NCBI RefSeq assembly: GCF_023634025.1
Contig: NZ_JALJCW010000004.1
Location: 124,001 to 188,000 of the forward strand
DNA from: Hanstruepera flava
Lineage (GTDB): Bacteria > Bacteroidota > Bacteroidia > Flavobacteriales > Flavobacteriaceae
Direction of reading: 5' to 3'
Length of the DNA stretch: 64,000 bases
Shown here: piece after piece, positions 15,731 through 60,415 of the stretch
How the letters are laid out: each line of letters starts with the position of its first letter
Numbering within the stretch: position 1 is the stretch's first letter
Position numbers and translations under genes: made by a program
The notes under the pieces: model-generated
What the model saw: the letters and a program-made list of their open reading frames with translations, nothing else
The model's database searches: none
What the model was told of the DNA's origin: nothing

Positions 15731-15731
15731 A

Positions 15732-38344: not shown

Positions 38345-39442
38345 TTGAAGAAACGAAAAATAGCATTTATAATTCCAAGTCTTCAAACTGGTGGTGCCGA
38401 ACGTGTTGTAGTAACCTTATCCAACTCGTTATCTACACGTTTTGACGTTACAATTATTGCCTTGTATAGTAGTGAAATATTTTACGCTTTAAACCCAAAC
38501 GTTACGGTTAAATTTTGCTCTGGTACTTATAAATTCAATACTAATCCTATAACGAGAGTTCTTAATCATTTTAAGCTAATTAAGGGCATATATTCAATCG
38601 TAAAACAAAATAAAATTGAAGTTATGATTGGATTTATGACTACCCCAAATGTTTATGCTGTTATAGCATCGAAAATAGCAAAAGTGCGTTGCATAATCAG
38701 TGAGCGTGTACATCCAAATCATATTCAAGCATCTAAATTTTGGGGCTTGATTAGAAAAAAGATATATCCCTTCACGGACTATATGGTGATACAGACCCAA
38801 GAAATTGCTGACTATTTTTCAAGTTTCATAAAAGTTGAAAAGATTAAAATCATTTTAAATCCTTTAAATCCAGAACTACTAAATAAGATACAATCTGATA
38901 ATAAGCGAGAAAATGTAATATTAAATGTTGGACGATTAGATTACCAAAAAAATCAAGATATGCTTATTAGAGCGTTCTCCAATATTGAACGAAAAGATTG
39001 GAAGCTATTTATTGCTGGTGACGGTTCACAAAAAAACAACTACTTGAAATTAATTGACGAATTAAATCTAACTAATTCAGTAGAATTACTAGGAAATATA
39101 GATGATTTATCCCATTATTATAATTCAGCAAAAATATTTGCGTTCACATCACGATACGAAGGATTCCCAAATGCTTTAACCGAAGCTATGGCATTTGGGC
39201 TAGCTTGTGTTTCTACTGATTGTCCCTCTGGCCCTTCCGAACTAATATTTGACAACAAAAATGGAATTTTAATACCTGTTGAAGACCAAACCTCATTAGA
39301 AGTTAAGTTGCAATTATTAATGGATAACGAGGAGTTAAGAACTAATTTAAGTTTAAACGCTCAATTAGACACTCAAAAATTTGAACATAATGTAATTGCT
39401 GATCAATGGGAATTACTAATACAAAATTTATTATCAGCATGA
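38345..39442 (+). CDS. Glycosyltransferase family 4
   Basis: 365 residues with GT-B fold. N-terminal Rossmann part begins IAFIIPSLQTGGAERVV (TTG start at 38345; GGAE is the acceptor-side loop) and the C-terminal part has VGRLDYQKNQDMLIRAF near 201 and the E-x7-E donor loop in SRYEGFPNALTEAMAFGL near 277-294, followed by CPSGPSEL. Transfers a sugar from a nucleotide donor with retention. First gene of the plus-strand locus; its stop overlaps the ATG of the next gene (ATGA). Confidence 0.92.
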   Translation: MKKRKIAFIIPSLQTGGAERVVVTLSNSLSTRFDVTIIALYSSEIFYALNPNVTVKFCSGTYKFNTNPITRVLNHFKLIKGIYSIVKQNKIEVMIGFMTTPNVYAVIASKIAKVRCIISERVHPNHIQASKFWGLIRKKIYPFTDYMVIQTQEIADYFSSFIKVEKIKIILNPLNPELLNKIQSDNKRENVILNVGRLDYQKNQDMLIRAFSNIERKDWKLFIAGDGSQKNNYLKLIDELNLTNSVELLGNIDDLSHYYNSAKIFAFTSRYEGFPNALTEAMAFGLACVSTDCPSGPSELIFDNKNGILIPVEDQTSLEVKLQLLMDNEELRTNLSLNAQLDTQKFEHNVIADQWELLIQNLLSA

Positions 39443-40386
39443 CTTTAACCGAATTAATACCAACTTTTACAGGTATAGTAAATTTTGAGTCACACTATAC
39501 GTTCACAATTTTTACACCTGTTTACAATCGTGCTGACACCTTGGAACGTGTTTTTACTTCCTTAAACAATCAAACATTTAGAGACTTTGAACTCGTACTT
39601 ATTAACGACGGCTCAACAGATAACTCTCACAAGGTTGCTCAAGAATTAATAAAAACTGCTGATTTCCCCATTCAATACGTTAACAATCCAAAAAATCAGC
39701 ATAAGATGGCTTGTTTTTTTCAAGCCATTGAAATGGCTAGAGGGAAGTTTATTTTACCTTTTGATTCAGATGACGAATGCTTGCCAAGTGCATTACAAGT
39801 ATTTAAAGAGCAGTACAACGCTATTCCAATTGACAAAAAAGAAAAGATAAGCGGTGTAACTTGTTTGTGCAAGGATCAAAATGGAAAGTTAATTGGTCAA
39901 AAATTTCCAAAAAGTCCATACTACAGTAACACGTTTAAACAGAATATCGAATCGCCACTTACATCAGAAAAATGGGGGTTTACACGAACTGATATCCTAA
40001 AAGGTATTGAAGTTAATAAGAATATTTTTTCTAGAGGCTACATACCCGAAGGTATTATTTGGGAACTAATATCTAAAGAAGGTTTTACCACAAAATACAT
40101 TAATGAAATTTTAAGAATATATTATTTAGACACCGAAAATAGAATTTCAATTCAAAACCATGAAAAAGATGCATTTGGAATGGCTGTTTATTCATTATCC
40201 ATACTGAACTGGTTTCAAAACGACTATTTATTTAAAACGCCAAAATTGTTTATTAAACGATGTTATACACTACTTCGTGCTGCACAATATTTAGAATTTA
40301 GTTTAAAAGATTATTTAAATGCAATAGAAAATAAGACATTGAAACTCGTTTTTTTAATGGGTTGGCCATTTAAAAAATTGTTCTAG
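39439..40386 (+). CDS. Glycosyltransferase family 2
   Basis: 315 residues when started at the ATGA-overlapping ATG 39439 (33 bases inside a longer frame that starts at 39406). GT-A fold: FTIFTPVYNRADTLERVFTSL near 20-40, VLINDGSTDNS near 50 (donor-binding Asp), and DSDDE near 113 (DxD-type metal site), NQHKMACFFQAIEMARGKFI. Inverting transferase of the glycan locus. Its C-terminal helical part is not informative on the sugar. Confidence 0.9.
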   Translation: MTLTELIPTFTGIVNFESHYTFTIFTPVYNRADTLERVFTSLNNQTFRDFELVLINDGSTDNSHKVAQELIKTADFPIQYVNNPKNQHKMACFFQAIEMARGKFILPFDSDDECLPSALQVFKEQYNAIPIDKKEKISGVTCLCKDQNGKLIGQKFPKSPYYSNTFKQNIESPLTSEKWGFTRTDILKGIEVNKNIFSRGYIPEGIIWELISKEGFTTKYINEILRIYYLDTENRISIQNHEKDAFGMAVYSLSILNWFQNDYLFKTPKLFIKRCYTLLRAAQYLEFSLKDYLNAIENKTLKLVFLMGWPFKKLF

Positions 40387-40400
40387 TAAAATTAACCAAA

Positions 40401-41741
40401 GTGAAAGGACAAAAACTCATATCAACTTTTAATTCTTTAAAAAAGAATCCTACGATTATAAATATTATAACAGTAGGTGCTTTATCCATTTTTGTAAAGG
40501 GTTTTGGCTTTTTTAAAGAAATTGTAATAGCTGGAGAATTTGGACTATCTGAACTATTGGATACTTTTTATATTGCCTTGTTAGTGCCAGGTTTCATAAA
40601 TGAAGTTTTTATAAATGCTTTCAACACGGTTTTTATACCAAATTATATTGCCGAAGAGAAGACTCAAAAAGCCATTGGTCCTTTTCAGTCTACAAGCTTT
40701 ATTATCACTATTTGTAGTTCTTTGGTTTTCATGTTTATTGCCTTTCTATTTACTGATGTGTATTTAAATGTTTTTTTTAGCGGTCACACAGCTGAATATT
40801 ATGATTTAATCAAGTCACAATTCTATTATTTACTACCATGCATCCTATTTTGGGGTTTAACCTCTTTTTTAAACGGTCTACTTAATATATATGATGAATT
40901 CAGATATTCTACAATCTATCCTGTTTTAACATCAATAGCCATGCTTGTTTGTTTGTTTGGTTTTCAAAATGAACTAAAAGAGGATGTTCTTGCAGTTGGG
41001 ATGTTAATTGGTGCCATTAGTCAGTTTTTGTTTCTGCTTATTGTTTCCGTTAAAAAAAGCATAATAACGTTAGGCATACCAGATTTTAAAAACAAGAATG
41101 CAATAACCATGTTTAAACAAGTGCCCGCAAAGGTATCTTCAGGATTTTTAACCGGATTAATTCCTGTTGCAGATCAGTTTTTTGCTGCGCAATTGGTTAT
41201 AGGCTCGATTGCTGCACTAAATTATGGCTTAAAAATACCTGCCTTTATAACCACTATATTGCTGTTGGCATTGGGTAATGTGCTACTTCCCTATTTTTCA
41301 AAGTTATCAGTTGACAATATAGACCAAGCATATAGGAAATTATATCAACTGCTTAAATGGTTATTTATATTGCTTATTTCTCTCACCTTCATTCTTATTA
41401 TCTTTTCAAATGACATTATTGAATTGGTTTTTGAACGCAATAATTTTTCCGAATCTGATACTAATATTGTTTCCAATGTCCAAAAGATGTTTTTAATTGG
41501 TTTACCATTTACAATATGTGGAAATATTGTCGTTCGTTTTCTGACCAGTATTAATAAAAATACCTACATGGCCTACGTATCTCTAGTAAGTATTATTTTA
41601 AATGTTATTTTAGATTGGATATTAATGAAGTGGTACGGTATAATGGGAATAGCTTTGTGTACTGCAATTCTTCAAATATTGAGAAGTTTGGTTTTATTTA
41701 ATTATACTAGAAAGCAACATAAATTAATTAATTCGTTCTAG
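40401..41741 (+). CDS. MurJ/MOP-superfamily lipid-linked glycan flippase
   Basis: 446 residues with about 12-14 hydrophobic helices. GTG start at 40401. The N-terminus (ISIFVKGFGFFKEIVIAGEFGLSELLDTFYIALLVPGFINEVF) is MurJ/MviN-like, more so than the classical Wzx group, but in a glycan cluster it most likely flips the lipid-linked repeat unit across the inner membrane. A conserved AALNYGLKIPAF follows near residue 272. 14 bases after the GT2; the stop overlaps the next gene's GTG by one base. Confidence 0.82.
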   Translation: MKGQKLISTFNSLKKNPTIINIITVGALSIFVKGFGFFKEIVIAGEFGLSELLDTFYIALLVPGFINEVFINAFNTVFIPNYIAEEKTQKAIGPFQSTSFIITICSSLVFMFIAFLFTDVYLNVFFSGHTAEYYDLIKSQFYYLLPCILFWGLTSFLNGLLNIYDEFRYSTIYPVLTSIAMLVCLFGFQNELKEDVLAVGMLIGAISQFLFLLIVSVKKSIITLGIPDFKNKNAITMFKQVPAKVSSGFLTGLIPVADQFFAAQLVIGSIAALNYGLKIPAFITTILLLALGNVLLPYFSKLSVDNIDQAYRKLYQLLKWLFILLISLTFILIIFSNDIIELVFERNNFSESDTNIVSNVQKMFLIGLPFTICGNIVVRFLTSINKNTYMAYVSLVSIILNVILDWILMKWYGIMGIALCTAILQILRSLVLFNYTRKQHKLINSF

Positions 41742-42856
41742 TGAAAGTTTTTAGATACATATTACTTGGATTAATTATTTTAAATGTCCCTACGTTTAGT
41801 TTGGCAGTGTTTGGAGCTACTGCTGGCGCGCTTACTAATTCAATGATGTTTATAGGATTGATTGTATATTTTTTTATGGAGAAAAAATATAAATTAATCA
41901 TTCCTTTATTCATTCTTGGAATAACATATTTTTCAATTTCTGGCTTTAACTACACAGGTATTACCGAGGAATTTATAAAAGATGCTATTCGTTATTTTGT
42001 GTTTATCATTGGAGCTACTAGTTTAGCCAAAAACACAGATAGAAGGACCTTACTTATTTTATTCATAATTGGTGGAGCAAGTGTTTTAATAAATGCTCTG
42101 GTTTTTCCAAATTCTTATGGACGCTATAGTGGACTTTACCTCAATCCTAACAGGGCAGGTTTAGTATGTTTAATTGGATTTGTGCTTACTTATACTATTA
42201 ACAAAACATATCTTCGGCTATTTTTTCAATTTGTACTTACAATTGCAGGAATAATGACATTGTCACGATATTTTATACTTGTATTGGTAATCATAAATGT
42301 TGTTTCGGTTTTTGTAAACAAGAAAAATTCTGTAGGACTACTCGCAGGTGCAGTAGCTTTTTTAATTATTATTGGAACGTCTTCATTACAATTAAATACC
42401 GATAGATTTAGAGCCCTAAAAAGTATATTTAGTGGTAATGCTGAAGTAGAAACCATTACAAAAGCATCTCGCGATGAAACTTGGGCATTATACCATGATA
42501 TTCTTGTAAACAATCCACTTATTGGAGTTGGGTATAGAGAAATGCAAGGAAAAAAAAGTCAGAAAGTTTCAATTAAATCTGGTGTTCACAACACATACTT
42601 AATGGTTTTGGGGGAATCAGGAATAATTCCTTTTATAATTCTTATAATATTTTATTTGTCTTTACTTGTAAAAAGTAAGTGGTTTATAACAACACAACAG
42701 GAATTAGCTTATATGGCATTTACTTTAGCTACCTTTTTACTAGTATCGCATAATTATTTTGACAATTATATAGTTTTGTTTTTATCTATTTGGCTTTATA
42801 GCTCTGTAACCGTACCAGGTAAAGACACGATCAATCAAAACAACATTACAATTTAA
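41741..42856 (+). CDS. Wzy-like polymerase / O-antigen ligase family
   Basis: 371 residues, GTG start at 41741 overlapping the previous stop. About ten hydrophobic helices and a large periplasmic loop around residues 200-290 with ASRDETWALYHDILVNNPLIGVGYREM and SGVHNTYLMVLGESGIIPFI, the H-N-x-Y-x2-x-L-x-E-x-G pattern of the Wzy_C/O-antigen-ligase family. In this setting it should polymerise repeat units or ligate them. Overlaps with neighbours indicate one transcript. Confidence 0.85.
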   Translation: MKVFRYILLGLIILNVPTFSLAVFGATAGALTNSMMFIGLIVYFFMEKKYKLIIPLFILGITYFSISGFNYTGITEEFIKDAIRYFVFIIGATSLAKNTDRRTLLILFIIGGASVLINALVFPNSYGRYSGLYLNPNRAGLVCLIGFVLTYTINKTYLRLFFQFVLTIAGIMTLSRYFILVLVIINVVSVFVNKKNSVGLLAGAVAFLIIIGTSSLQLNTDRFRALKSIFSGNAEVETITKASRDETWALYHDILVNNPLIGVGYREMQGKKSQKVSIKSGVHNTYLMVLGESGIIPFIILIIFYLSLLVKSKWFITTQQELAYMAFTLATFLLVSHNYFDNYIVLFLSIWLYSSVTVPGKDTINQNNITI

Positions 42857-42859
42857 ACT

Positions 42860-44710
42860 ATGTGTGGCATATACGGCGTAACATTAAATAAATACACTGA
42901 AAATCAAATTCAATTAAAACTCGAACGTACTAAATTTCGAGGACCAGACAAGCTTGATTATAAATTTTTAGGAGAGAATAACCATATTGTTCTAGGGCAT
43001 AATAGACTTTCTATTATAGATTTAGATGAACGATCAAACCAGCCGTTTACCTATGACAATCGAATAAATATTGTTTTTAACGGTGAAATATATAATTTCA
43101 AAATTTTAAAATCTGAATTAGAACAAAAAGGTTATACTTTTAGAACAACCAGTGATACCGAAGTAATATGCGCTGCATATTTAGAGTATGGTGAAGCTTT
43201 TGTAAGCAAACTCAATGGCATGTTTGCCTTTGTTATTTATGACCAAGCCAAAGACTTACTATTTGCTGCACGTGACAGAATGGGGCAAAAACCATTTTAC
43301 TACCACTATAATGGTGAATCGTTTGAATTTGCCAGTCAACTATCCTCTATTCAATTATTCAATACTAACCTATCAATATCAAGTAAGGCCATAAGCTATT
43401 ATTTGACTTGGGGATTTGTACCTGATCCCTATTCTATTTTTAACGAAGTAAGCAAGCTTGAACCTGGTAATTCACTTCGATTTGATTTATCTAAAAAAAA
43501 GTTAGAAATAAACCAATATTGGGATATTGATTATAACGGACGGAATGTATTTAACGGCACCTATAAAGAAGCTAAAACTGAATTAACCGAAATTTTAAAA
43601 GATTCCGTTTCAAAGCGTTTATTTGCAGATGTTCCTGTAGGTGTGTTTCTGTCAGGCGGTATTGATTCCTCATTAGTCGCTGCATTAGCAACAAAAGCAA
43701 CAGAAAGTAAAGTAAAAACTTTTTCCGTTAAGTTTAATGAAAAAGGGTTTGACGAAAGTGTTTATGCCCAAAAGGTAGCAGACCATTTAAAAACTGACCA
43801 TCATGTCATTCAGTGTAATTATGATGAAGGTTTAGATTTAATTGAAAATTTTGATTATTACTACGATGAGCCTTTTGCTGATTCGTCTGCTATTCCATCT
43901 ATGTTGCTTTCAAAATATACAAGAGAGAAAGTAACTGTTGCTCTGTCCGGCGATGCTGGTGATGAAAGCTTTATAGGCTATCATCGTTACCATTGGATGA
44001 AACAAGTGAGTCCTATTTATAAAATGCCTTCCGCATTGCGGAATATTGGATCAAGTGTATTAAGTAAAATGCCATATTATAAGCTTAAAACCATTGCAAA
44101 AGGCTTACAATATGAATCATTGGAACGTTTATACTTAGCTTCCGTAACTGGAGTAGATTTATCATGGCTTAACACCAAACATGATTCTCTAAATATAAAG
44201 GAACTCAAGTATTTGAACCACAATAACAAAAACGTCTACGAAAGAATGTCCGATTTTGATTTAAAAACCTATTTAAATTGTGACATAAACACTAAAGTTG
44301 ATAGAGCATCTATGGCTTTTTCCCTAGAAGCAAGAGCTCCACTTATGGATTATCGTGTTGTCGAGTTTGCAAGAGCACTACCAACCCGTTATAAATACTC
44401 TGGAAACAATCAAAAGCGTATTCTTAAAGATATTCTTTATGACTTTGTACCAAAAGAGTTTTTTAACCGACCGAAAGCAGGCTTTACCATGCCGTTTTCA
44501 GATTGGTTTAGAAATGAATTAAAGGATTTAGTATTGGATGAACTCAATGATTCAAGTTTAAATCAAATTCCAAACATCAATGTAGATGAAGTAAAACTTC
44601 GTATTAAACAGCACATGGATGGTAGCTGGAATCGCTATCCATTAATTTGGAAATTACTTGTTTTAAAGCAATGGTTAAATAAAAATGGCAAAGAATATGT
44701 TATCAAATAA
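42860..44710 (+). CDS. asnB: Asparagine-synthase-like amidotransferase, first copy
   Basis: 616 residues. N-terminal nucleophile glutaminase: MCGIYG with Cys2 as nucleophile, FRGPDKLDY, HNRLSIIDLD, FNGEIYNF, TSDTEVI. C-terminal synthetase with the ATP PPi-loop SGGIDSSLVAAL near 253 and DEPFADSSAIPSMLLSK. Uses glutamine ammonia to amidate a carboxylate (Asp or a sugar uronic acid). Within a glycan locus, such proteins often act on sugars; the acceptor here is unknown. A second copy lies at 46961. Confidence 0.9.
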   Translation: MCGIYGVTLNKYTENQIQLKLERTKFRGPDKLDYKFLGENNHIVLGHNRLSIIDLDERSNQPFTYDNRINIVFNGEIYNFKILKSELEQKGYTFRTTSDTEVICAAYLEYGEAFVSKLNGMFAFVIYDQAKDLLFAARDRMGQKPFYYHYNGESFEFASQLSSIQLFNTNLSISSKAISYYLTWGFVPDPYSIFNEVSKLEPGNSLRFDLSKKKLEINQYWDIDYNGRNVFNGTYKEAKTELTEILKDSVSKRLFADVPVGVFLSGGIDSSLVAALATKATESKVKTFSVKFNEKGFDESVYAQKVADHLKTDHHVIQCNYDEGLDLIENFDYYYDEPFADSSAIPSMLLSKYTREKVTVALSGDAGDESFIGYHRYHWMKQVSPIYKMPSALRNIGSSVLSKMPYYKLKTIAKGLQYESLERLYLASVTGVDLSWLNTKHDSLNIKELKYLNHNNKNVYERMSDFDLKTYLNCDINTKVDRASMAFSLEARAPLMDYRVVEFARALPTRYKYSGNNQKRILKDILYDFVPKEFFNRPKAGFTMPFSDWFRNELKDLVLDELNDSSLNQIPNINVDEVKLRIKQHMDGSWNRYPLIWKLLVLKQWLNKNGKEYVIK

Positions 44711-45798
44711 TGCATAGTAGACAGGTCCATATTGTTTTTGTTTTACCTTCTTTGGCTGCTGGCGGAGCTGAACGTATATTATCGTATGTTGCTTCACATC
44801 TAGACCAATCAATTTTTAATGCCACCCTAGTAATTACTGGTTATGAAAAGGACACTGTGTATTCAGTTGAGAACCTAAATGTTGTGTACTTAAATAAACC
44901 TAGAGTTTTAAAGGCATTTGGAAGTTTGTTCAATTATTTAAAGAAAGAAAAACCAGATATTGTTGTGAGTTCAATAGTGCACTTAAACACCATGATGGCC
45001 TTTATGTCTCCTCTTTTTTGGAACACAAAATTTGTAGCCAGAGAAGCTAATGTCTTAAGCGTTTTAAATAAGCACAATCCATATACAAAATCTATTTTCC
45101 CAAAGTTTATGATAGTGCTCGCATATAAACTTGTTGATTGTATTATTTGTCAATCTAAAGATATGAGAGATGATATGATTAATAATTATAGCGTTAAAGC
45201 ATCTAAAACAGTATTAATCAACAATCCCATTACAAACTCATTTAAAACTAAATCTGAAAGTCAAGAAAAAACAAGTCCCATCAAATTTATTACCATTGGT
45301 AGATTAAGCAAGGAAAAAGGACATATTAGAATAATTGATGCATTATCAAAACTGAATTACCCGTTTCAGTATACAATTATCGGGAAGGGACCTGAAAAAG
45401 AAGCCATTTTTGATTATATCAATCAGAAAAAACTGATTGATTCCATTCAATATATAGAATATACAAATGAGGTTGAGCACTATCTAGCTGATAGTGATTT
45501 GTTTTTACAAGGTTCGTATTCTGAAGGCTTTCCAAATGTACTAATTGAGAGTTCTGTAATTGGCACTCCAATTTTAGCCTATGATGGTGTTGGTGGATTG
45601 GATGAGATTATTGAGGTTGGCAAAAACGGATATATCGCTAATTCGCTTGAAGAGTTTGTAAGTTATCTAAATGCTATCCATGATGATTTCCCCTTTAACC
45701 CACTTATAGTGAGTCAAGTGGTTAAAAGCAAATTCAGTAGTTCAAAAATCATGGCTGAATACACTAATTTATTTTTAAATTTAACCAAACAGAATTAA
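44710..45798 (+). CDS. Glycosyltransferase family 4
   Basis: 362 residues, GT-B. N-terminal IVFVLPSLAAGGAERILSYV, C-terminal ITIGRLSKEKGHIRIIDAL near 196 and GSYSEGFPNVLIESSVIGTPIL near 271. TAATG overlap with asnB at its start and with the next transferase at its end, so it is part of the tightly packed core. The donor sugar cannot be named. Confidence 0.9.
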   Translation: MHSRQVHIVFVLPSLAAGGAERILSYVASHLDQSIFNATLVITGYEKDTVYSVENLNVVYLNKPRVLKAFGSLFNYLKKEKPDIVVSSIVHLNTMMAFMSPLFWNTKFVAREANVLSVLNKHNPYTKSIFPKFMIVLAYKLVDCIICQSKDMRDDMINNYSVKASKTVLINNPITNSFKTKSESQEKTSPIKFITIGRLSKEKGHIRIIDALSKLNYPFQYTIIGKGPEKEAIFDYINQKKLIDSIQYIEYTNEVEHYLADSDLFLQGSYSEGFPNVLIESSVIGTPILAYDGVGGLDEIIEVGKNGYIANSLEEFVSYLNAIHDDFPFNPLIVSQVVKSKFSSSKIMAEYTNLFLNLTKQN

Positions 45799-46955
45799 TG
45801 TCTCAAAAAAGAAAAATAGCTCTATTTGTATCAGCCATTGGGTTTGGAGGTGCAGAAAAAGTGGTTAGCCTATTGTTGGATGAGCTTACAAAATACTTTG
45901 ATGTAACTCTAATTCTGCTTTATGATGAAATTAAATTACCCCTAAACAAAAATGCCAAAATCGTAATTTTATCAAAACCAGGAAGCACATTTAAAACGAA
46001 TATTTTTGCACGACTATATGATAACTTTAAGTTTATTTTCAAATATCAAAAGGCTCTAAAAGAACACAATATTGAAGTGGCTGTTTCTTTTTTAGTCAGA
46101 CAGAATATTATGAATGGTATTGCTAAAATGAACAACAAAAAGTTGAAGACCATTATTAGTGAACGCTGTTTTCCTTCAATAATGTATAGCGACCAAAAAG
46201 CAACGTCATTTTTAACAAAATTACTTATACCCTTCTTTTATAATAAAAATGATAAATTGTTTTCGAACTCAATCTACATAAATAACGATTTGATTTCCAA
46301 TTATAACATCAAGATAGATACATCGGTAATATATAATCCCATTTTAACCAAAAACAGAAAACCAAAATTAAAATCGTATAAAAATTTGGAAGACGTTTTT
46401 AATGTGGTTACCGTTGGTCGATTAATTCCAGTCAAAAACCAAAAGAGTATCATTGAAGCTATTAAATTACTCCCAAGTAATTTTGTTCTAGATATTTATG
46501 GAGATGGTGAGTTGCATGATGATTTAAATTTGTTATCTAAAGAGTTAGACATTCAAGACCGCATTCATTTTAACGGTAATGTTAATAATGTGAAATCCCA
46601 TATAGTTGAAAAGCATTGCTTTGTATTGAGTTCAATTACTGAAGGTTTTCCTAATGTAGTATTAGAAGCTATGTCTGTTGGTTTACCAGTTATTTGTACC
46701 AATTGCATGTCCGGACCTTTGGAATTGCTTAACGATAATGAAAAAGTAAACATCCTATCTGGTTCATTTGTAAAAGCTAAATACGGGCTTCTCGTAAATG
46801 TTGATGATACGGTTGGTTTATCTCAAGCCATAAAATATATGCAAAATAATATTGAAGAACGTAACATGTATAGCAAGTTGAGTTTTGAAAGAGCTAAAAC
46901 CTACGATGTATCGAATATTGGTATTCATGTTAAAAACCTAATAGATAGTTTATAA
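45798..46955 (+). CDS. Glycosyltransferase family 4
   Basis: 385 residues, GT-B. Begins ALFVSAIGFGGAEKVVSLLL; C-terminal VTVGRLIPVKNQKSIIEAI near 202 and SSITEGFPNVVLEAMSVGLPVI near 274, then MSGPLELL. Similar in design to the transferase at 38345 (GGAE loop, late CxSGPxEL string), so the two are likely related. TAATG start overlap; 5 bases before the second asnB. Confidence 0.9.
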   Translation: MSQKRKIALFVSAIGFGGAEKVVSLLLDELTKYFDVTLILLYDEIKLPLNKNAKIVILSKPGSTFKTNIFARLYDNFKFIFKYQKALKEHNIEVAVSFLVRQNIMNGIAKMNNKKLKTIISERCFPSIMYSDQKATSFLTKLLIPFFYNKNDKLFSNSIYINNDLISNYNIKIDTSVIYNPILTKNRKPKLKSYKNLEDVFNVVTVGRLIPVKNQKSIIEAIKLLPSNFVLDIYGDGELHDDLNLLSKELDIQDRIHFNGNVNNVKSHIVEKHCFVLSSITEGFPNVVLEAMSVGLPVICTNCMSGPLELLNDNEKVNILSGSFVKAKYGLLVNVDDTVGLSQAIKYMQNNIEERNMYSKLSFERAKTYDVSNIGIHVKNLIDSL

Positions 46956-46960
46956 ATTCT

Positions 46961-48847
46961 ATGTGTGGTATTAATGGCATAATAAGTCAAAATCAGGATA
47001 AGCAAAATATTGCGACTTCGCTAACCAAAATGAATGATTTAATTATTCATCGTGGTCCAGATGATGATGGTATGGTTACCCATGTACAAAATAATAGTAC
47101 AATCGGCATGGCAATGCGACGACTATCTATAATTGATTTAAACTCGGGTAAACAGCCTATTTATAATGACGATAAATCTATTGTAATAGTATTTAATGGT
47201 GAAATTTACAACTACAAAGAACTACGCAATCAATTGATGAATGAAGGCGTGCAATTTAAAACCCAAAGTGATACCGAAGTTATTCTGAAGCTCTATATAA
47301 AACATGGTACAGAATCATTTAGATTACTAGATGGCATGTATGCCTTTAGTATACTGGATACAAATATAAATAAGGTATTTATTGCTCGAGATTTTTTTGG
47401 TGAAAAACCCTTATACTATTATTCAAAGAACGATGAATTTTATTGGGCTTCTGAATTAAAATCAATTATTCAAGGCTTAAATTATAAACCTAAAATATCC
47501 ATAACAGGTTTAAACTTATTCTTCAAACTAACATACATACCAGCGCCTTATACGATATATGATAATATTTACAAGTTAGAAGCCAATCATTTTATTTCAT
47601 TCGATTTAAATTCGCATTATTACAAAACATCTGAAATTCACAAGCTACAATCGGAATCATCAGATATGACATTTGATGCTGCTAAATCTAAACTAAACAA
47701 GCTTGTTTTAAACAGTATAGAAAGCCGGTCTGTAAGTGATGTACCTATTGGAACTTTCCTCTCTGGAGGAGTCGATTCATCTATAGTAAGTCTTGGTCTT
47801 TCGAAATTATCGTCTCAAAAAATTGACACCTTCTCTATTGGCTTTAATAAAAAATCATTTGATGAAACCGATAAATCCAAGTTAGTGGCCAATCTTATTG
47901 GAAGCAACCATCATGAATTTATTATATCAGAAAAAGATATTGAATCACATATTACAGATATACTTCTAAACTTTGATGAACCATTTGCTGATTCATCGGC
48001 ATTACCTACTTATTTGGTTTCTAAAAAAACTAGCGATTTTGTTAAAGTAGCTTTAACTGGTGATGGTGGTGACGAAGTGTTTGGTGGTTATAATAAATAT
48101 TATATGGGTAAACTTAATACGAGTTATACCAAATGGGTCCCTGAATTTGTGCATAAAGCCTTTAAGCCGTTAGCCAATTCATTGTTAGTGACACATGATG
48201 ACAACCGTGGCAAGCGCTTTAAAGCTAAAAAGTTTATTAATGCCATAGATTATAAAGGCGATAATTATTGGAACATTATATCGTTGGGATTTGACGGTGA
48301 ATTGTCTCAACTTATTAATTCTAAATTTCATATTAATAACCCGTTTCAATACTTTAAGTCAAACTTGCCTAAAGCCATAACTTTACATGATTTTCGTGAA
48401 ATTGATAGGCATATTAGCCTAGAAGGCGATATGCTTGTTAAAGTAGACAGAACGAGCATGCTTAACTCGTTGGAGTGTCGTGCTCCTTTTTTAAACAAAT
48501 CATTATGGGAATTTTCAAATAGTTTACCCGAATCGTTTTTGCTAAATGGCTGGAGCAAAAAACATCTTTTAAAGGAAGCTTTTAAACATGAATTCCCTGA
48601 AGGTTTTCTTGATAAATCTAAAAAAGGATTCATTGTTCCAGTTGGCGACTGGCTTCGCTCAATATTAAAAAAAGAACTACAAAGTTACACAGAAACGGTT
48701 TTTTTAGAATTGCAAGGCATTTTCAATACAGATTATATTCAGAAAATAGTTAATGAACATATAACTGGGAAATTAGATAACAGTTATAAAGTATGGACAT
48801 TCTTCACATTCCAAAAGTGGTATAAAAATACGTATCTTAACGAATAA
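46961..48847 (+). CDS. asnB: Asparagine-synthase-like amidotransferase, second copy
   Basis: 628 residues. Cys2 nucleophile in MCGINGI, HRGPDDDG, MRRLSIIDLNSGKQPI, FNGEIYNY and TQSDTEVI in the glutaminase; SGGVDSSIVSLGL near 265 and DEPFADSSALPTYLVSK in the synthetase. It differs clearly from the copy at 42860, so this is not a recent duplication. Two such enzymes in one glycan locus suggest two amidations or two acceptors. Its 3' end overlaps the convergent ATP-grasp gene by 11 bases. Confidence 0.9.
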   Translation: MCGINGIISQNQDKQNIATSLTKMNDLIIHRGPDDDGMVTHVQNNSTIGMAMRRLSIIDLNSGKQPIYNDDKSIVIVFNGEIYNYKELRNQLMNEGVQFKTQSDTEVILKLYIKHGTESFRLLDGMYAFSILDTNINKVFIARDFFGEKPLYYYSKNDEFYWASELKSIIQGLNYKPKISITGLNLFFKLTYIPAPYTIYDNIYKLEANHFISFDLNSHYYKTSEIHKLQSESSDMTFDAAKSKLNKLVLNSIESRSVSDVPIGTFLSGGVDSSIVSLGLSKLSSQKIDTFSIGFNKKSFDETDKSKLVANLIGSNHHEFIISEKDIESHITDILLNFDEPFADSSALPTYLVSKKTSDFVKVALTGDGGDEVFGGYNKYYMGKLNTSYTKWVPEFVHKAFKPLANSLLVTHDDNRGKRFKAKKFINAIDYKGDNYWNIISLGFDGELSQLINSKFHINNPFQYFKSNLPKAITLHDFREIDRHISLEGDMLVKVDRTSMLNSLECRAPFLNKSLWEFSNSLPESFLLNGWSKKHLLKEAFKHEFPEGFLDKSKKGFIVPVGDWLRSILKKELQSYTETVFLELQGIFNTDYIQKIVNEHITGKLDNSYKVWTFFTFQKWYKNTYLNE

Positions 48848-49787
48848 GTTTACTTAAATCTATTTTGGAGCCTAGCTCCAAATCCCAAGATTCGGGATAG
48901 ATACGCTCACAACCACCACCATGGTGGAATGTAATTTCACCAAAATAGATGGCTCCATCAACATTATACAAGTCGATTCTAACATATTCAAATGGCTTGG
49001 CCAATTGTTCAGCCAATTCCATCATTAACTGAAAATTTGCTGGCTTATCAATATCAGAGCCATTTGGCCAAAGCGGCTTGTTATTTTTCCATTGCGACCA
49101 CGTAAATGGCATTAAATTCCAGTTACGGTCATAAAAATTACGCCTATGGTCAGAAAACCTATCTAAATCAACTTGAATGGTTTCTACCCTACCATTAAAA
49201 CAATGAAATTTATAATCAAATGGCAACTCGCCTTTTTCGTCTTTCAGCAATTTTTCTGCTAAAAAAGCTGGAACAATATTTTTGTACTGCCACTCTTTAC
49301 TCTCTAAATAATAATTTTGCTTTAGTAGTTTTTTTATTTTTTTTCTAATCAAATTCCAATCAACTGACTGCGAATCTAAAACTATAAAACCTCCTGAACT
49401 ATTGTGATTGGTTTTTATAATATAAGGTTTGTCGTTGGGAAAATTTTCTGGTTTTAGGTTATTAATATTAGAGCTGTGGTAATAAAGCGGAATTAAATAT
49501 TTAGAACCAATAACACGCTCTACATAACTTCTAACCAGTAATTTATCTGCGCATTTTGTATGCAAATCTGTACGATCATGCAGTTTTAACCAAAGTATTT
49601 TTTCATTTAATGTTTTAGGGTTATCTAAATCTGGTAATCTTTTAAAACTAGCTTTATACTGGTTAATTACATACTTTTTTTCATCCATGAAATGGATTTT
49701 AAAATACTTTCGCATTTCAAAAAAAGCATTAATGATTGTTTTTCCAAGAGAAGTATTACGGTATAAATACTTAACTACCTTCAGCAT
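48837..49787 (-). CDS. TupA-like ATP-grasp protein
   Basis: 316 residues. Fits the TupA-like ATP-grasp/glycosyltransferase-linked family: LPDLDNPKTLNEKILWLKLHDR near 53-74, KYLIPLYYHSSNI near 96-108, KTNHNSSGGFIVLDS (ATP-binding Lys and Gly-rich loop) near 124-138, EKLLKDEKGELPFDYKFHCFNGRVE near 172-196, and DLYNVDGAIYFGEITFHHGGG near 274-294 with metal-binding Asp/Glu. Such proteins ligate amino acids or similar to glycans. It is inverted relative to the surrounding genes; 83 bases separate it from the divergent glycosyltransferase. Confidence 0.8.
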   Translation of the reverse strand: MLKVVKYLYRNTSLGKTIINAFFEMRKYFKIHFMDEKKYVINQYKASFKRLPDLDNPKTLNEKILWLKLHDRTDLHTKCADKLLVRSYVERVIGSKYLIPLYYHSSNINNLKPENFPNDKPYIIKTNHNSSGGFIVLDSQSVDWNLIRKKIKKLLKQNYYLESKEWQYKNIVPAFLAEKLLKDEKGELPFDYKFHCFNGRVETIQVDLDRFSDHRRNFYDRNWNLMPFTWSQWKNNKPLWPNGSDIDKPANFQLMMELAEQLAKPFEYVRIDLYNVDGAIYFGEITFHHGGGCERIYPESWDLELGSKIDLSKLIR

Positions 49788-49870: not shown

Positions 49871-50956
49871 ATGGCTAAAAAAATTTGTTTTGTTGGTGGT
49901 GAAGATGTACACAAACGCATACCCTTATCAAAACATTTGATTCAGGCAGGGTATCAGGTAACCATAATTGGAACCAGCATCGAGCAATTCCCATCATCTA
50001 TTACTTATTGCACTTATAATTTAGTTAGGCACTTCTCTCCTATTTCAGATTATAAAACCATAAAATGGTTGCAAAATTATTTTAATAAAAATCCGTTTGA
50101 CATCATTCATACTTTTGACACTAAACCAGCCTTTTTAGTGCCTTTAGCACTTAAAAATAATAATGTACCCATAACTAGAACCATTACTGGATTAGGAACA
50201 TTGTTTATGTCTAACAGTCTATCGAGTTCCGTATTAAGACTTGTGTATAAATTACTTCACAAAAAAGTAAAAAACCGTGTTTTTAAAACTGTTTTTCAAA
50301 ATTTAGATGATCATGAGTTATATTTAAAAAACAACCTTGTAAAAAAGGAAAACTGCGAATTAATTTATAGCAGTGGCATAGATTTAACTAAATTTAAAGT
50401 TAAGGCAATAAGAAAGCAAAACCCCTTTACTTTTATATGTGTAGCCAGATTGGTTTACGAAAAAGGCATAATAAATTATCTTGAAGCTGCAAAAATTTGT
50501 ATTGACAAAAATTTTGATTTCAAATTTCTATTAGTAGGACCTTTAGAAGAAGATTCTAAAAAATTAAATAAACAGATATTAGATTCATACAACGATATTG
50601 TTAGTGTTTTAGGAGCCCGAACTGATATTGTAGAATTACTTCTAAAATCTGATGCCTTTGTATTACCTACCTTTCGAGAAGGCTTTTCTAGAGTACTTCT
50701 TGAAGCTGCAGCTGTTGGGCTTCCTATTGTATCGACAAATGTAACTGGTGTAAGAGACTTTGTTACACATCAAAAAGATGCGCTTTTAGTCGAAGCACAA
50801 GATTCTCAAGCTCTTGCAGAATGCATGATTGAAATTGCAACTAATGCGATATTATCTGAACAATTAGTTGAAAATGCATTAAAAAAGGTTGAAACGTATA
50901 GTATCGAGAATGTATCTAAACAATATATAGCTATCTTTGATGATGCTATTAATTAG
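49871..50956 (+). CDS. Glycosyltransferase family 4 (PglA/WbpT-like)
   Basis: 361 residues. KICFVGGEDVHKRIPLSKHLIQAGYQV start, HTFDTKPAFLVPLA near 79, RTITGLGTLFMSN near 101, ARLVYEKGIINYLEAA near 190 and FREGFSRVLLEAAAVGLPIV near 272-291, typical of GT4 enzymes that add the second or third sugar on a PP-lipid. Located just before the DegT aminotransferase and the initiating transferase, i.e. among early-step genes. Confidence 0.88.
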   Translation: MAKKICFVGGEDVHKRIPLSKHLIQAGYQVTIIGTSIEQFPSSITYCTYNLVRHFSPISDYKTIKWLQNYFNKNPFDIIHTFDTKPAFLVPLALKNNNVPITRTITGLGTLFMSNSLSSSVLRLVYKLLHKKVKNRVFKTVFQNLDDHELYLKNNLVKKENCELIYSSGIDLTKFKVKAIRKQNPFTFICVARLVYEKGIINYLEAAKICIDKNFDFKFLLVGPLEEDSKKLNKQILDSYNDIVSVLGARTDIVELLLKSDAFVLPTFREGFSRVLLEAAAVGLPIVSTNVTGVRDFVTHQKDALLVEAQDSQALAECMIEIATNAILSEQLVENALKKVETYSIENVSKQYIAIFDDAIN

Positions 50957-50964
50957 ATAAAAAA

Positions 50965-52173
50965 ATGAAAATTCCTTTTTCGCCTCCCTATATAAATGAT
51001 GCTGTAATTAACGAAGTGACTGATGCTTTAAAGTCAGGATGGATCACAACTGGCCCTAAAGTAAAAAGACTTGAGGAGCTAGTTTGCGAATATATTGGAG
51101 TTCCAAATTCATTATGTGTAAACTCTGCTACTTCCGGATTAATTTTAGCTTTAAAGTGGTATGGTATTGGACCTGGTGATGAAGTTATTATTCCCGCATA
51201 TACCTATGCAGCTACAGCACTTGCAGTTGTTCATGTTGGCGCTACACCTGTCATGGTTGATGTTAATGATGATTTTAATATTTCGGTTTCAGCAATTGAA
51301 AATGCTATTACTAAAAAAACCAAAGCTATTATTCCAGTTGACATTGCTGGGTGGCCTTGTGATTACGATGACATTATCGCACTAGCGAAACAAAAAAGTA
51401 ATCTTTTTACTCCGCAAAATAATAACCAAAAAAAGCTAAATAGAATATTGGTTTTATCAGATTCTGCACATGCTATAGGAGCAAAATATAAAGAAAAATA
51501 TGTTGGAACAACTTCAGATATATGCGTATTTTCATTTCATGCGGTAAAAAATGTAACAACTGCAGAAGGCGGTGTTGTATGCTTAAATCTGCCAAAGGAT
51601 GCTTTCAGCAACAATGATGAGTATGCCTATTTGCGTTGTTATGCATTAAATGGGCAAACCAAAGATGCTTTTACAAAATCTAAAGCTGGTGGTTGGAAAT
51701 ACGATATTATTTATCCTGGATTAAAAATTAATATGCCTGATGTTTTGGCGGCTATTGGCTTGGCACAGCTACCGGACTATTTTGAATTTATTCTAAAAAA
51801 GCGCGCTAAAATTTATACGTTTTATCAAACTTTCTTTGAATCAAAAGCTTGGGCCATTATTCCACCTTATAAAAACCAAGATAAACTTTCATCTTGTCAT
51901 TTATATGCTTTACGAATTAACGGAATTACTGAAGAGCAACGTGATAGTATAATTAATACGGTTTCTCAAAAAGGCGTAGCTGTAAATGTTCATTTCCAAC
52001 CCTTACCACTTTTGAGTCTTTTTAAGGATATGGGCTTTTCTATAACCGATTATCCCAATGCGTATAAAAATTACAAATGCGAAATATCACTACCTATTTA
52101 TCCACAACTAACTGATGATGAGTTACACTATATAGTAGACACTATTGAAAGTGCAGTATTAGCTCAATTATGA
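50965..52173 (+). CDS. DegT/DnrJ/EryC1 sugar aminotransferase
   Basis: 402 residues, PLP enzyme for 3- or 4-amino sugars. GWITTGPKVKRLEELVC near 27-43, SATSGLILALKWYGIGPGDEVIIPAYTYAAT near 59, and SFHAVKNVTTAEGG near 190-203 with the PLP Lys. An insert near 150 (KQKSNLFTPQNNNQKKLNRI) is longer than usual. Its stop overlaps the initiating transferase ATG (ATGA). One of two such enzymes in the locus, the other at 56571. Confidence 0.9.
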   Translation: MKIPFSPPYINDAVINEVTDALKSGWITTGPKVKRLEELVCEYIGVPNSLCVNSATSGLILALKWYGIGPGDEVIIPAYTYAATALAVVHVGATPVMVDVNDDFNISVSAIENAITKKTKAIIPVDIAGWPCDYDDIIALAKQKSNLFTPQNNNQKKLNRILVLSDSAHAIGAKYKEKYVGTTSDICVFSFHAVKNVTTAEGGVVCLNLPKDAFSNNDEYAYLRCYALNGQTKDAFTKSKAGGWKYDIIYPGLKINMPDVLAAIGLAQLPDYFEFILKKRAKIYTFYQTFFESKAWAIIPPYKNQDKLSSCHLYALRINGITEEQRDSIINTVSQKGVAVNVHFQPLPLLSLFKDMGFSITDYPNAYKNYKCEISLPIYPQLTDDELHYIVDTIESAVLAQL

Positions 52174-52760
52174 TAAAACGTTTATTTGATATCATTTTTT
52201 CTGCTTTAGGTTTAATATTATTATTACCTTTACTCCTGCTAATAGCAATTCTCCTAAAATTAGAATCCAAAGGGCCTGTTTTCTACAAACAAGTTCGAGT
52301 TGGGCATAATAGCACAGATTTTAAAATATTTAAGTTTAGAACCATGTTTGTAGGTTCAGACAAGAAAGGCTTGTTGACTGTTGGAGATAGAGATCCCAGA
52401 GTTACAAAAACAGGCTATTTTTTAAGAAAATACAAGCTAGATGAACTTCCACAGTTAATAAATGTTATTATTGGGAATATGAGTTTTGTTGGACCTAGAC
52501 CAGAAGTAAGGAAATACGTGAGTTTATATTCTAAATCTGATTTAGAAATACTAACTGTAAAACCTGGCATTACGGATTATGCATCTATTGTTTTTAGAGA
52601 CGAAGCCGAATTATTGAAAACAGCTAAAAAACCTGAAGAATTATATATTAATGAAATAATGCCAAGAAAGATAGCCTTGAATAAGCAGTATATAGATAAT
52701 CATAGTATTCTAGTAGATATTAGAATTATTTTTAAAACCATTAAAACAATTATTAGTTAA
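52170..52760 (+). CDS. Initiating sugar-phosphate transferase (PglC/WcaJ-like)
   Basis: 196 residues, the short PglC-type. One re-entrant N-terminal membrane helix (about 8-31), then YKQVRVGHNSTDFKIFKFRTMF near 40, and the catalytic Asp-Glu in KYKLDELPQLINVIIG near 91, followed by SFVGPRPEV. Moves a sugar phosphate from UDP-sugar to undecaprenyl phosphate, starting repeat-unit assembly. ATGA overlap with the aminotransferase and TAATG overlap with the deacetylase. Confidence 0.92.
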   Translation: MIKRLFDIIFSALGLILLLPLLLLIAILLKLESKGPVFYKQVRVGHNSTDFKIFKFRTMFVGSDKKGLLTVGDRDPRVTKTGYFLRKYKLDELPQLINVIIGNMSFVGPRPEVRKYVSLYSKSDLEILTVKPGITDYASIVFRDEAELLKTAKKPEELYINEIMPRKIALNKQYIDNHSILVDIRIIFKTIKTIIS

Positions 52761-53749
52761 TGCCCACCGAAAATGGATATTTATTAATTTCTTTAGACTT
52801 CGAATTATTTTGGGGAGTAAGAGATGTTAAAACAAAATCTGTTTACAAAGAAAATTTATTAAATGTTCAAAAAGTTATTCCAAGGCTTTTAGAATTAGCT
52901 GATAAATATGATGTAAAATTAAGTTTTGCAACAATTGGTTTTTTGTTCGCCAAGAATAAAGCGGAGCTATTAAGCTTTGCTCCTAGTCTTAAGCCTACCT
53001 ATCAAAACACCATTTTTAATCCATACAGTTATATTGAAAGCTTTGAAGAGGAAGAAAATTTTAAACAATACCACTATGCTCCCAACTTAATAGATTTAAT
53101 TAACTCCAATAAAAACCACGAAATAGCCACACATACTTTTAGCCATTTTTACGTTAATGAAACTGGACAAACCATCGAGCAATTTGAAAGTGATTTATTG
53201 GCGGCAATAGCTATTGCAAAACAAAAAGACATTACATTTAAAAGTATTGTATTTCCAAGAAATCAAATTAATGAAGATTACTTAAGTGTTTGCTTTAAAC
53301 ATGGTATAACCAATTACAGGGGAACAGAAAATCATTGGATGTTTGATACGACAGATACAAATAGGCTTGAGCGTCCATCCCATAAAATGTTTCGTTTGAT
53401 GGATGCTTATTTTAATTTATCGGGTTACAACACCTACCCTTTGTCAAGTATAAAATACATACACGGTGTTTTAAACATCCCATCAAGCAAATTTTTCAGA
53501 CCGTATTCCAAGCCATTAAAAGTTCTAGAGCCACGAAGAATTAATAGAGTAAAAAAAGGCTTAACGTATGCCGCAAAACATAACGAAATATATCATATGT
53601 GGTGGCATCCACATAATTTTGGAGCTAACATTGAAGAAAACTTCAATAATTTAGAAGCCATTTTCAAACACTTTATGACCTTAAAAAAAGATTACCGTTT
53701 TAATAGTCTAACCATGTCTGAATTAGCATCGATTGTTAATACTAAATAA
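52760..53749 (+). CDS. Polysaccharide deacetylase family protein
   Basis: 329 residues. NodB-type deacetylase: ISLDFELFWGVRD near 8-20 replaces the usual TFDDG with an Asp-Phe-Glu form, LSFATIGFLFA near 54, and the metal pair HEIATHTFSHFYV near 116-128 (H-x3-H); IVFPRNQINEDYL near 158 holds the catalytic Arg region. This resembles the PuuE-like/COG0726 branch. Probably trims acetyl groups from the glycan or an acyl-sugar. Its 3' end overlaps the convergent gene by 8 bases. Confidence 0.82.
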   Translation: MPTENGYLLISLDFELFWGVRDVKTKSVYKENLLNVQKVIPRLLELADKYDVKLSFATIGFLFAKNKAELLSFAPSLKPTYQNTIFNPYSYIESFEEEENFKQYHYAPNLIDLINSNKNHEIATHTFSHFYVNETGQTIEQFESDLLAAIAIAKQKDITFKSIVFPRNQINEDYLSVCFKHGITNYRGTENHWMFDTTDTNRLERPSHKMFRLMDAYFNLSGYNTYPLSSIKYIHGVLNIPSSKFFRPYSKPLKVLEPRRINRVKKGLTYAAKHNEIYHMWWHPHNFGANIEENFNNLEAIFKHFMTLKKDYRFNSLTMSELASIVNTK

Positions 53750-54980
53750 TCTCTATAGCATAACTAGAAGCTTTTCCAACCACATAATAAGTTGGTTCAC
53801 TATCTCCCAACTTGTAAACCTTTAAATTTTTAAAAGGCTCTGGTTTTTTAAAAAGGCCGTCATAAATTATTCGATTAAGAAAAGGATACTTAATACATTC
53901 TTCTTCTATATTAACCTGCAATAAATTATCAATACCATCTAGGTTATTAATAGACTTTAGCTCAAACTGTCGCTTATTGCTTGGGCAAACTATTAGATGC
54001 TTAAGCTTAAACTTCAATTTAACTAAAAACAAATTAAAATTCTTATCCCTTAAATACTGTTTAAAATTAAAAAAGCAAGCCAACAATTTGGCCGTCATAC
54101 GGCTGGTGAAACTTGAACTATCGTATAAAATATGGCAATTATAGTTGTACTCGCTATTAGTCCATCTATCCTTGTATTTATATGTTCCTTTAGAAAAATC
54201 AAAATATCTTAAATTGTTTTGTAAACAAAACTCAATTAATTTACTAATCTCAATATGGCCAACATTGAACTTATAAAAATCTGAATCAAAAGCTTTAATA
54301 GCTCCCACTAATGACACGCTTCCTAAAAATGCCAATGACATAGAAACAGGTTTGCCGTTAGCTTTTATGGAAACTAAAATGGCTTTTTCGTCAAGTATCA
54401 TATTATATATCAATTCGGTGTAAAAAGGCCATTCAGTAATTAAATTGGTATCTAACTTTAGGGTTTCAAAGCGTCTTGTTATGATGTCCTTAAAGTCTTT
54501 CATTACATTACTGTAATCTTCTTTTGAAATAAAATCTTTGTAAATATTATATTCAACATCAAAACACGCTTCAAATTTTCTTAAGGCACTTCTAAACTTG
54601 TTTCGAGATTTAGTATTGAGTTCTTTTAATAAATAGCTTTCTAGATTTTCAACACCCTCAAAATCGGCTAAATATCCTTTATATTGCTGTATTTCATATA
54701 GTTCAATTGGACTGCCCTCAATTGGAGGCTCAATTTTAAAATAACTAGGAACATCATAAATTAATAATGTTTTATTCTTAAAGTCTCTGGCATCATGATC
54801 GAGGGCATATGTTATTCCATTAGTAGAATTCCTCCCAACATTTATAAAATATGGTAAAAAAGAATGCTTATAGAACTTTAATCCATCAACATAGTTAAAG
54901 GCAACACCTTCTTTATGCCTTGAAAAGTGTTTTAACCACGTTAATTCATATATTTTAGATGTAAATGGATTATTTATCAT
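53742..54980 (-). CDS. GNAT-type acyltransferase (BioF2/FemAB-like), copy 1
   Basis: 412 residues. The central ~120-residue region with KAFDSDFYKFNVGHIEISKLIEF near 229 and LRYFDFSKGTYKYKDRW near 258-274 is the Acetyltransf_6 (BioF2-like) motif, in which a GNAT half binds acyl donor. Closely similar to the neighbour at 54970 in gene order and motifs. Inverted relative to the main locus. Possible role: N-acylation of an amino sugar, or aminoacyl transfer; not proven. Starts inside the stop of copy 2 (11-base overlap). Confidence 0.75.
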   Translation of the reverse strand: MINNPFTSKIYELTWLKHFSRHKEGVAFNYVDGLKFYKHSFLPYFINVGRNSTNGITYALDHDARDFKNKTLLIYDVPSYFKIEPPIEGSPIELYEIQQYKGYLADFEGVENLESYLLKELNTKSRNKFRSALRKFEACFDVEYNIYKDFISKEDYSNVMKDFKDIITRRFETLKLDTNLITEWPFYTELIYNMILDEKAILVSIKANGKPVSMSLAFLGSVSLVGAIKAFDSDFYKFNVGHIEISKLIEFCLQNNLRYFDFSKGTYKYKDRWTNSEYNYNCHILYDSSSFTSRMTAKLLACFFNFKQYLRDKNFNLFLVKLKFKLKHLIVCPSNKRQFELKSINNLDGIDNLLQVNIEEECIKYPFLNRIIYDGLFKKPEPFKNLKVYKLGDSEPTYYVVGKASSYAIEII

Positions 54981-56211: not shown

Positions 56212-56570
56212 TTTTTAGCATTTTATTGTTAAAATTAGTCTTTTAAAACAACATATTTTAGAGGAATATATTTTTTTAGTTGTATGTAAAAAAAAACAAT
56301 ATGAACGGTCAGTTTTAAGATACATTTCTGCAATATTTCTTTTTTGTATATTTACTTATTGTATTCGGTTAAAACATTTTACTTCCCTTAATAATAGAAA
56401 TATCAGCTAATAATAGCTTTTTATCACGATTTAGAATTTAATTTTGAACGATTAAATGTGTATAAAAAACGATTAAATCAATACATTTAAACATTGAAAA
56501 TCAAAAAACGTAGAAATTAGTTATTTATCGTATTTATTTGAACAAGACTATTTAAACTTTGATATTTACT
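56212..56570. other. 359-bp AT-rich divergent intergenic region
   Basis: Lies between the minus-strand acyltransferase pair and the plus-strand aminotransferase operon. No ORF of interest. TATATTTA near 56347-56354 is one mismatch from the TAnnTTTG -7 box on the plus strand but is over 200 bases from the ATG. A long untranslated leader or unseen promoter is likely. Confidence 0.5.
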
Positions 56571-59601: not shown

Positions 59602-59613
59602 CATAGTATTAAT

Positions 59614-60405: not shown

Positions 60406-60415
60406 CCTAAATTAA

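Follow-up and report, generated by a model that had tools for sequence, protein, structure and literature searches.

A putative modular amide decoration block in a Wzx/Wzy glycan locus of Hanstruepera flava with two AsnB-like amidotransferases and a TupA-like ATP-grasp protein

AsnB-like amidotransferases have been tied to uronamides in bacterial glycans. In Porphyromonas gingivalis, deletion of the AsnB-like PGN_1234 (WbpS) turned glucuronamide into glucuronic acid as judged by mass, and WbqG of Escherichia coli O121 is cited in the same report as required for uronamide (PMC7468200). A wbpS mutant of Helicobacter pullorum carried a truncated glycan, given in the discussion of that report as N-acetylhexosamine-N-acetylhexosaminuronic acid (HexNAc-HexNAcA) and in one sentence of its results as the amide, HexNAcAN; by our own subtraction, the tabulated masses of the wbpS and pglB1 mutant proteins are 420 Da apart, a difference in keeping with the acid (PMC6025236). 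The TupA-like domain Cj1438C of Campylobacter jejuni is described as a glucuronic acid (GlcA) amidoligase that joins GlcA to serinol- or ethanolamine-phosphate, and the next transferase is reported to depend on the amidated residue (PMC11800379). In P. gingivalis, the deacetylase VimE and the FemAB-like VimA were inferred by the authors to replace an acetyl group by serine or glycine (PMC7468200). Here we describe a locus of Hanstruepera flava (family Flavobacteriaceae, genome of 3.09 Mb) within a 64-kb stretch of DNA (G000:C4:124001-188000; hereafter the window, in whose own numbering coordinates are given) that encodes two AsnB-like proteins, AsnB1 and AsnB2, and a TupA-like ATP-grasp protein, TupA. 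We favor, with fair confidence, the reading that this is a decoration block in which independent WbpS-type AsnB1 and AsnB2, a TupA amide ligase, and a deacetylase/Fem module serve a Wzx/Wzy glycan locus. Amide decoration of the glycan is likely on this analysis, and the whole looks like a modular mix of known kinds of glycan decoration, ordinary in kind, rather than a new system.

The window AsnBs share with the WbpS/WbqG enzymes (Pseudomonas aeruginosa, H. pullorum, P. gingivalis PGN_1234, and E. coli O121) the AsnB architecture and the setting in a glycan locus; they lie nearer to the eps_aminotran_1 model than to AsnB, and their acceptor signature is common to an E. coli O-antigen AsnB. They differ in that two classes occur in one locus in which no uronate pathway was found, and the likeness is one of description, not of sequence. 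TupA resembles the C-terminal amidoligase of Cj1438 from the C. jejuni HS:2 capsule in its glycan locus and in the TupA-like ATP-grasp fold that the authors of that work assign to it. Unlike Cj1438, it is a stand-alone protein encoded on the opposite strand, no serinol-phosphate genes were recognized, and this comparison is likewise by description, not by sequence. With the P. gingivalis Wbp/Vim system the window locus shares amidotransferases of AsnB type together with a deacetylase-like protein and proteins of FemX-fold type; in contrast to VimA, the window Fem-type proteins match no PEP-CTERM femAB model, none being present among NCBIfam matches up to an E value of 10 in a library whose content was not checked for TIGR03019. 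A further resemblance is to XrtA/PEP-CTERM exopolysaccharide loci, as TIGR03108 and TIGR03006 are the best NCBIfam models for the AsnBs and the deacetylase-like protein; however, the scores are far below the cut-offs, and the families identified included no exosortase, no search having been aimed at exosortases.

The initial annotation described two AsnB-like amidotransferases around two glycosyltransferases, followed by a TupA-like ATP-grasp protein, and the open reading frames (ORFs), families, and coordinates of this arrangement proved correct (PF00733, PF13537, GT4, PF14305). AsnB1 (42860-44710, plus strand, 616 aa; PF13537/PF13522 and PF00733, 319.8 bits) is a glutamine-dependent amidotransferase and proposed uronamide former. 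Directly after it comes the glycosyltransferase GT4b (44710-45798, plus strand; PF00534/PF13692; best NCBIfam model PglJ, far below cut-off), and then GT4c (45798-46955, plus strand; PF00534/PF13692; PglJ again best, 209 bits against a cut-off of 500) directly before AsnB2 (46961-48847, plus strand, 628 aa; PF13537 and PF00733, 272.8 bits), the second putative glycan amidotransferase. These four genes run head to tail, with starts and stops sharing one base or set apart by a 5-base gap, and of 27 AsnB2 genes, 26 have a GT4 gene immediately upstream (weakly assigned in 4 cases). TupA (48837-49787, 316 aa; PF14305 ATPgrasp_TupA, 185.3 bits, cut-off 25), the proposed amide ligase, is encoded on the minus strand, a point that went unmentioned in the initial annotation; its gene is convergent with that of AsnB2, tail to tail, and overlaps the AsnB2 end by 11 bases. 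The 3.09-Mb genome has a single PF14305 gene and 14 control genomes have none; as the gene order of the stretch also recurs in relatives, this gene set is far beyond chance. Among named organisms, the closest relative found was Hanstruepera marina (locus L042), with a TupA identity of 86%. The complete locus spans 38345-62734 in the order GT4a, GT2, Wzx (MurJ family), Wzy, AsnB1, GT4b, GT4c, AsnB2, TupA (minus strand), GT4d, DegT1, a sugar-phosphate transferase, the deacetylase-like gene, two FemAB/GNAT-type genes (minus strand), DegT2, a PglF-type dehydratase, Wza, and Wzc.

The best NCBIfam model for both AsnB1 and AsnB2 is TIGR03108 (eps_aminotran_1), at 512.8 and 495.1 bits, neither of which reaches its curated cut-off of 816.9. 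Both stay under the cut-off of 499 for NF006949, asparagine synthase B (290.8 and 301.8 bits). The housekeeping AsnB, a separate gene on another contig, scores 942.8 bits with NF006949 and just 242.8 with TIGR03108. It is conceivable that AsnB1 and AsnB2 are redundant asparagine synthases that happen to sit in the locus, or inactive remnants, and in agreement with this both pass the broad asparagine synthase model TIGR01536 (457.5 and 446.7 bits, cut-off 267.1) and would therefore receive that name in databases. We consider this highly improbable, as the genome has a true AsnB gene at another site and, in both classes, residues of the aspartate pocket are replaced across whole clades while catalytic residues are kept.

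The residues were compared in an alignment of 71 sequences, comprising 35 AsnB1-class and 35 AsnB2-class rows (both including the genes of the window) and one housekeeping AsnB, with numbering taken from E. coli AsnB via alignment to 1ct9; the class rows include a spurious long-branch row (L202_4910), two rows from a Lachnospiraceae metagenome-assembled genome (MAG), and one identical pair. Cys1, R49, NGE, D98, SGGxDS, and K449 are conserved in AsnB1, and AsnB2 has the same catalytic set. The changes E348D, R387K, N389D, and K390R, at positions that we take to form the aspartate pocket, occur in all AsnB-class rows but one. Catalytic residues of both halves are kept and the pocket residues replaced in 34/35 AsnB1-class and 35/35 AsnB2-class rows, the exception being the spurious row, and with this combination the proteins appear neither decayed nor of the same specificity as AsnB. 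Judged by sequence, neither active site is damaged and neither is of the aspartate type. Fixed differences separate AsnB1 from AsnB2 at positions 346 and 405 (T346 and N405 in AsnB2). The AsnB2 rows and the flavobacterial AsnB1 rows form separate clades (SH-aLRT 98-100 and 99-100, respectively) in quick trees with long branches, from which we claim no deep joins. On this evidence, AsnB1 and AsnB2 are assigned to two separate classes.

Weak DNA similarity (E 0.05) led, in 6 of 5,426 genomes, to the AsnB of an E. coli O-antigen cluster. This AsnB carries the same D/K/D/R set and scores 343.6 bits against AsnB1, 286.2 against AsnB2, and 128.9 against the genome's housekeeping AsnB. It sits with tviB and a tviC-like epimerase gene, and the adjoining wzx is annotated as 'O35 family'; this serotype presumably carries a galactosaminuronamide. 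The annotated start of this asnB gene (L206:8016-9800) omits the catalytic Cys. Model scores and residues thus assign AsnB1 and AsnB2 to the glycan (WbpS/eps_aminotran_1) side of the family, apart from the housekeeping asparagine synthases. Each would hydrolyze glutamine, activate a sugar carboxylate with ATP, and form a uronamide, the acceptor presumably being a sugar uronate in nucleotide-sugar or lipid-linked form. If this is true, two clades listed in databases as asparagine synthase form glycan uronamides in marine flavobacteria, and the AsnB residue signature flags such mis-annotation.

TupA is a member of PF14305 and, by its AlphaFold2 (AF2) model (predicted local distance difference test, pLDDT, 94.1), a predicted ligase of the ATP-grasp fold. 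Foldseek and VIA-align both gave this fold, with D-Ala-D-Ala ligases, ArgX, LysX, and amino-acid ligases nearest (best structural match Z 14.5, root-mean-square deviation 3.5 over 208 residues; Foldseek identities 8-18%); a sequence search of the PDB returned no TupA relative. Across 45 TupA sequences 20 columns are invariant, among them R270, D272, and E284, which by analogy with D-Ala-D-Ala ligase would bind ATP/Mg. TupA would act as an independent amide ligase, probably joining a uronate carboxylate to an amine in the way that Cj1438C uses serinol phosphate. A doubtful but serious contender is that TupA is instead an aminoacyl ligase, placing an amino acid on the amino group of sugars made by the PglF and DegT proteins of the locus. 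By family, the locus makes 4-amino sugars (PglF-type, DegT), and none of its ORFs was recognized as a PglD-like acetyltransferase, although one may be encoded elsewhere. TupA is also encoded in loci whose flanks hold no uronate dehydrogenase, and amino-acid ligases are among its nearest folds; these folds, however, are distant (8-18% identity) and uninformative on substrates, and the sole characterized TupA-like domain that we found uses the C6 carboxylate of GlcA together with an amine, as reported in PMC11800379.

Co-occurrence was examined in 149 Flavobacteriaceae genomes, the window's own included, with p values that ignore kinship. TupA was present in 27, close AsnB1 in 15, AsnB2 in 22, and close Wzx in 16; six weaker AsnB1 and five weaker Wzx matches were left out. 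AsnB1 and Wzx were found together in 10 genomes (1.6 expected, p 1.8e-8), with AsnB1 within 20 kb of this Wzx type in 10/16 Wzx genomes. AsnB1 and AsnB2 met in 6 genomes (2.2 expected, p 0.011), always 4.1-5.4 kb apart (6/6), and AsnB2 and Wzx in 5 (2.4 expected, p 0.063). TupA was found together with AsnB1 in 7 genomes (2.7 expected, p 0.007), with Wzx in 7 (2.9 expected, p 0.011), and with AsnB2 in 7 (4.0 expected, p 0.071). Yet TupA lay within 20 kb of each AsnB in just 4 of 27 TupA genomes, and no TupA lay within 20 kb in 11/15 AsnB1 and 18/22 AsnB2 genomes. A quick TupA tree requires 14 changes in AsnB presence, at least 8 of them by starred branches. AsnB1 therefore travels with this Wzx locus type, AsnB2 is its partner in some loci, and TupA is a looser add-on; the weak excess of TupA with AsnB1 is evidence of a shared locus preference, not of joint action.

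The same looseness is seen among loci built on the DegT1/PglF scaffold of the window. Fourteen were seen, two of them (L044, L074) cut by contig ends and 12 intact from AsnB1, or its place, to DegT1 (the window, L042, L043, L045, L046, L047, L083, L088, L101, L111, L189, and L198). AsnB1 is present in 11/12 intact loci (not L111) and AsnB2 in 8/12 (not L045, L083, L111, or L198). TupA is present in 10/12 (not L189 or L198) and doubled in L043, L045, L046, and L088, a count that is biased upward as 10 of the 12 are the window or were found via TupA; L189 and L198 came from AsnB1/Wzx searches. The variants include AsnB1 only (L198), AsnB1 with AsnB2 (L189), AsnB1 with TupA (L083), and TupA only (L111, Xanthomarina spongicola), all with constant backbone genes, so that AsnB2, TupA, and other modules look like exchangeable decorations on one backbone; each module could be gained or lost on it. 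Two loci carry an MBOAT-like and SGNH-like pair, named by eye, between GT4b and GT4c (L043:15001-17351 and L047:13943-16302), which is probably for O-acylation. Where loci share a backbone but differ in a single decoration gene (AsnB2, TupA, FemAB/GNAT-type, or MBOAT-like), they offer ready pairs for linking gene to mass shift, and this natural series could also link a TupA-like protein to its substrate outside Campylobacter.

A single fixed system of AsnB and TupA was rejected on the 149-genome co-occurrence and on the TupA-less loci L189 and L198. The idea of the initial annotation that the three enzymes form one functional unit is thus not supported, given their weak co-occurrence and the absence of TupA from these otherwise matching loci; the check for co-occurrence in other loci that it proposed gave a weak excess of TupA with AsnB1. 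Its proposal of amide decoration itself is supported by the WbpS-side placement of the AsnBs, the ATP-grasp fold of TupA, and the Cj1438C precedent. Taken as one linked pathway, the idea of the initial annotation would have the AsnBs amidate the carboxylate of a substituent other than a sugar uronate, such as a glutamate or aspartate residue that TupA or the FemAB/GNAT-type proteins had put in place. In favor of this, no uronate pathway was found in the locus, TupA and AsnB2 are convergent neighbors, TupA lies directly upstream of AsnB1 in L049, L052, and L065, and a Lachnospiraceae MAG locus (L121), from a different phylum, has this trio with TupA flanked by an AsnB gene on either side. We judge this pathway improbable in view of the many AsnB1 and AsnB2 genomes with no TupA nearby, of L189, which has both AsnBs without TupA, and of the acceptor signature common to the E. 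coli O-antigen AsnB that sits beside uronate genes.

For AsnB1 and AsnB2 as uronamide formers, the uronate would come from a TviB/TviC-like pair (UDP-GlcNAcA/GalNAcA) or from Ugd, encoded elsewhere in the genome. Outside the window the genome has three NDP-sugar dehydrogenases, which are Ugd/TuaD-like, WecC (over cut-off), and TviB-like. The last (UGD3, 550 bits) is followed after 2.3 kb by a TviC-like epimerase gene (324 bits), both scores being under the equivalog cut-offs. This pair is present in 10/10 UGD3 regions fetched, from the own genome and nine relatives (an eleventh fetched region, of genome G008, is its Ugd type), and adjoins Wza and Wzc (Wzc in the own genome), apparently as part of another glycan locus. 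That third glycan locus of the genome (L217, G000:C2:214000-233000) holds Wzc, the TviB/TviC-like genes, and ORFs read by eye as an ABC transporter and sulfotransferases. Some NDP-sugar dehydrogenase is present in 31/31 genomes with AsnB1 or AsnB2, and the TviB-like type in 29/31 of these versus 88/118 others (p 0.026). Such co-presence is permissive and not proof because NDP-sugar dehydrogenase genes are common anyway. Near TupA loci, the TviC-like epimerase is commoner with AsnB (12/35 versus 4/45, p 0.0096), a weak enrichment that stands among roughly a dozen tests made on related loci.

Several results weigh against uronamide formation by this locus, beginning with the TIGR03108 scores below cut-off. 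No uronate-making gene was found in the locus, nor any NDP-sugar dehydrogenase in the whole 64-kb window, and uronate would need to be supplied in trans. Near TupA loci, neither UGD3 (14/35 with AsnB versus 12/45 without, p 0.24) nor UGD1 (11/35 versus 15/45, p 1) was significantly commoner with AsnB. The AsnB1 genome G008 has a Ugd-type dehydrogenase only, so HexNAcA is not the sole possible substrate. Amide-specific glycosyltransferases were also considered and rejected, as within the same scaffold neither GT4c nor GT4d similarity to the window gene is split by AsnB2 presence (GT4c 378-632 bits with AsnB2 and 471-518 without; GT4d 492-530 and 472-539; sibling species locus L042 left out, contig-cut L044 and L074 included). 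One lead is that AsnB1 may act on hexuronic acid (HexA) and AsnB2 on HexNAcA. G008, with the Ugd type only, and G005, with the TviB type only, agree with this split, whereas G062 (84% complete) has AsnB2 with the Ugd type only.

The amide and amino-acid chemistry of the locus reaches beyond 42860-49787, to a region at 52760-56211 that was overlooked in the initial annotation. A polysaccharide deacetylase-like gene (52760-53749, plus strand; PF01522 23.3 bits, cut-off 23.1; TIGR03006 19.9 bits, far below cut-off), proposed for a VimE-like step, is followed by two FemAB/GNAT-type genes on the minus strand. The first (53742-54980; PF13480, aligned with the neighboring Fem-type protein) encodes a proposed aminoacyl or acyl transferase. 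The second (54970-56211; PF13480; AF2 pLDDT 87.9) folds in its model closest to FemX, MprF-type, and other aminoacyl-tRNA-dependent transferases, the best PDB folds being FemX and aminoacyl-phosphatidylglycerol synthases. Together these proteins could free an amino-sugar nitrogen and then acylate it with an amino acid. Amino-acid side chains, if present, more likely stem from the deacetylase and FemX-fold pair, a set that, matching no femAB model in NCBIfam, may work like the VimE/VimA route rather than belong to it. By extension, the locus might make an aminoacylated uronamide glycan to which type IX secretion cargo is covalently anchored in Flavobacteriaceae. The two amidotransferases and the ATP-grasp ligase would then set the chemistry of an anchor analogous to the linking sugar of the Porphyromonas Wbp/Vim pathway, but we regard this as a very long shot.

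The rest of the locus was assigned by family matches. It opens with GT4a and GT2 (38345-40386, plus strand), followed by the MurJ/Wzx-type flippase (40401-41741, plus strand; PF03023) and a protein of the Wzy-type polymerase/O-antigen ligase family (41741-42856, plus strand; PF04932). GT4d, DegT1, the sugar-phosphate transferase, DegT2, the PglF-type dehydratase, Wza, and Wzc occupy 49871-62734, a region of mixed strands. A promoter scan gave fewer promoter-like sites than in shuffles and was not used. Upstream of the locus lie genes for a type IX cargo protein (Por_Secre_tail; 34458-37931) and, at 29912-31465, for a PglZ-domain response regulator that we take to be PorX-like. A minus-strand run of histidine biosynthesis genes lies at 13545-17015. 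Elsewhere in the genome, a second glycan region (L187, G000:C1:1390000-1409900) carries genes for WecB, WecC, an APS kinase, and a member of the inositol-phosphatase family, a content suggestive of a sulfated glycan.

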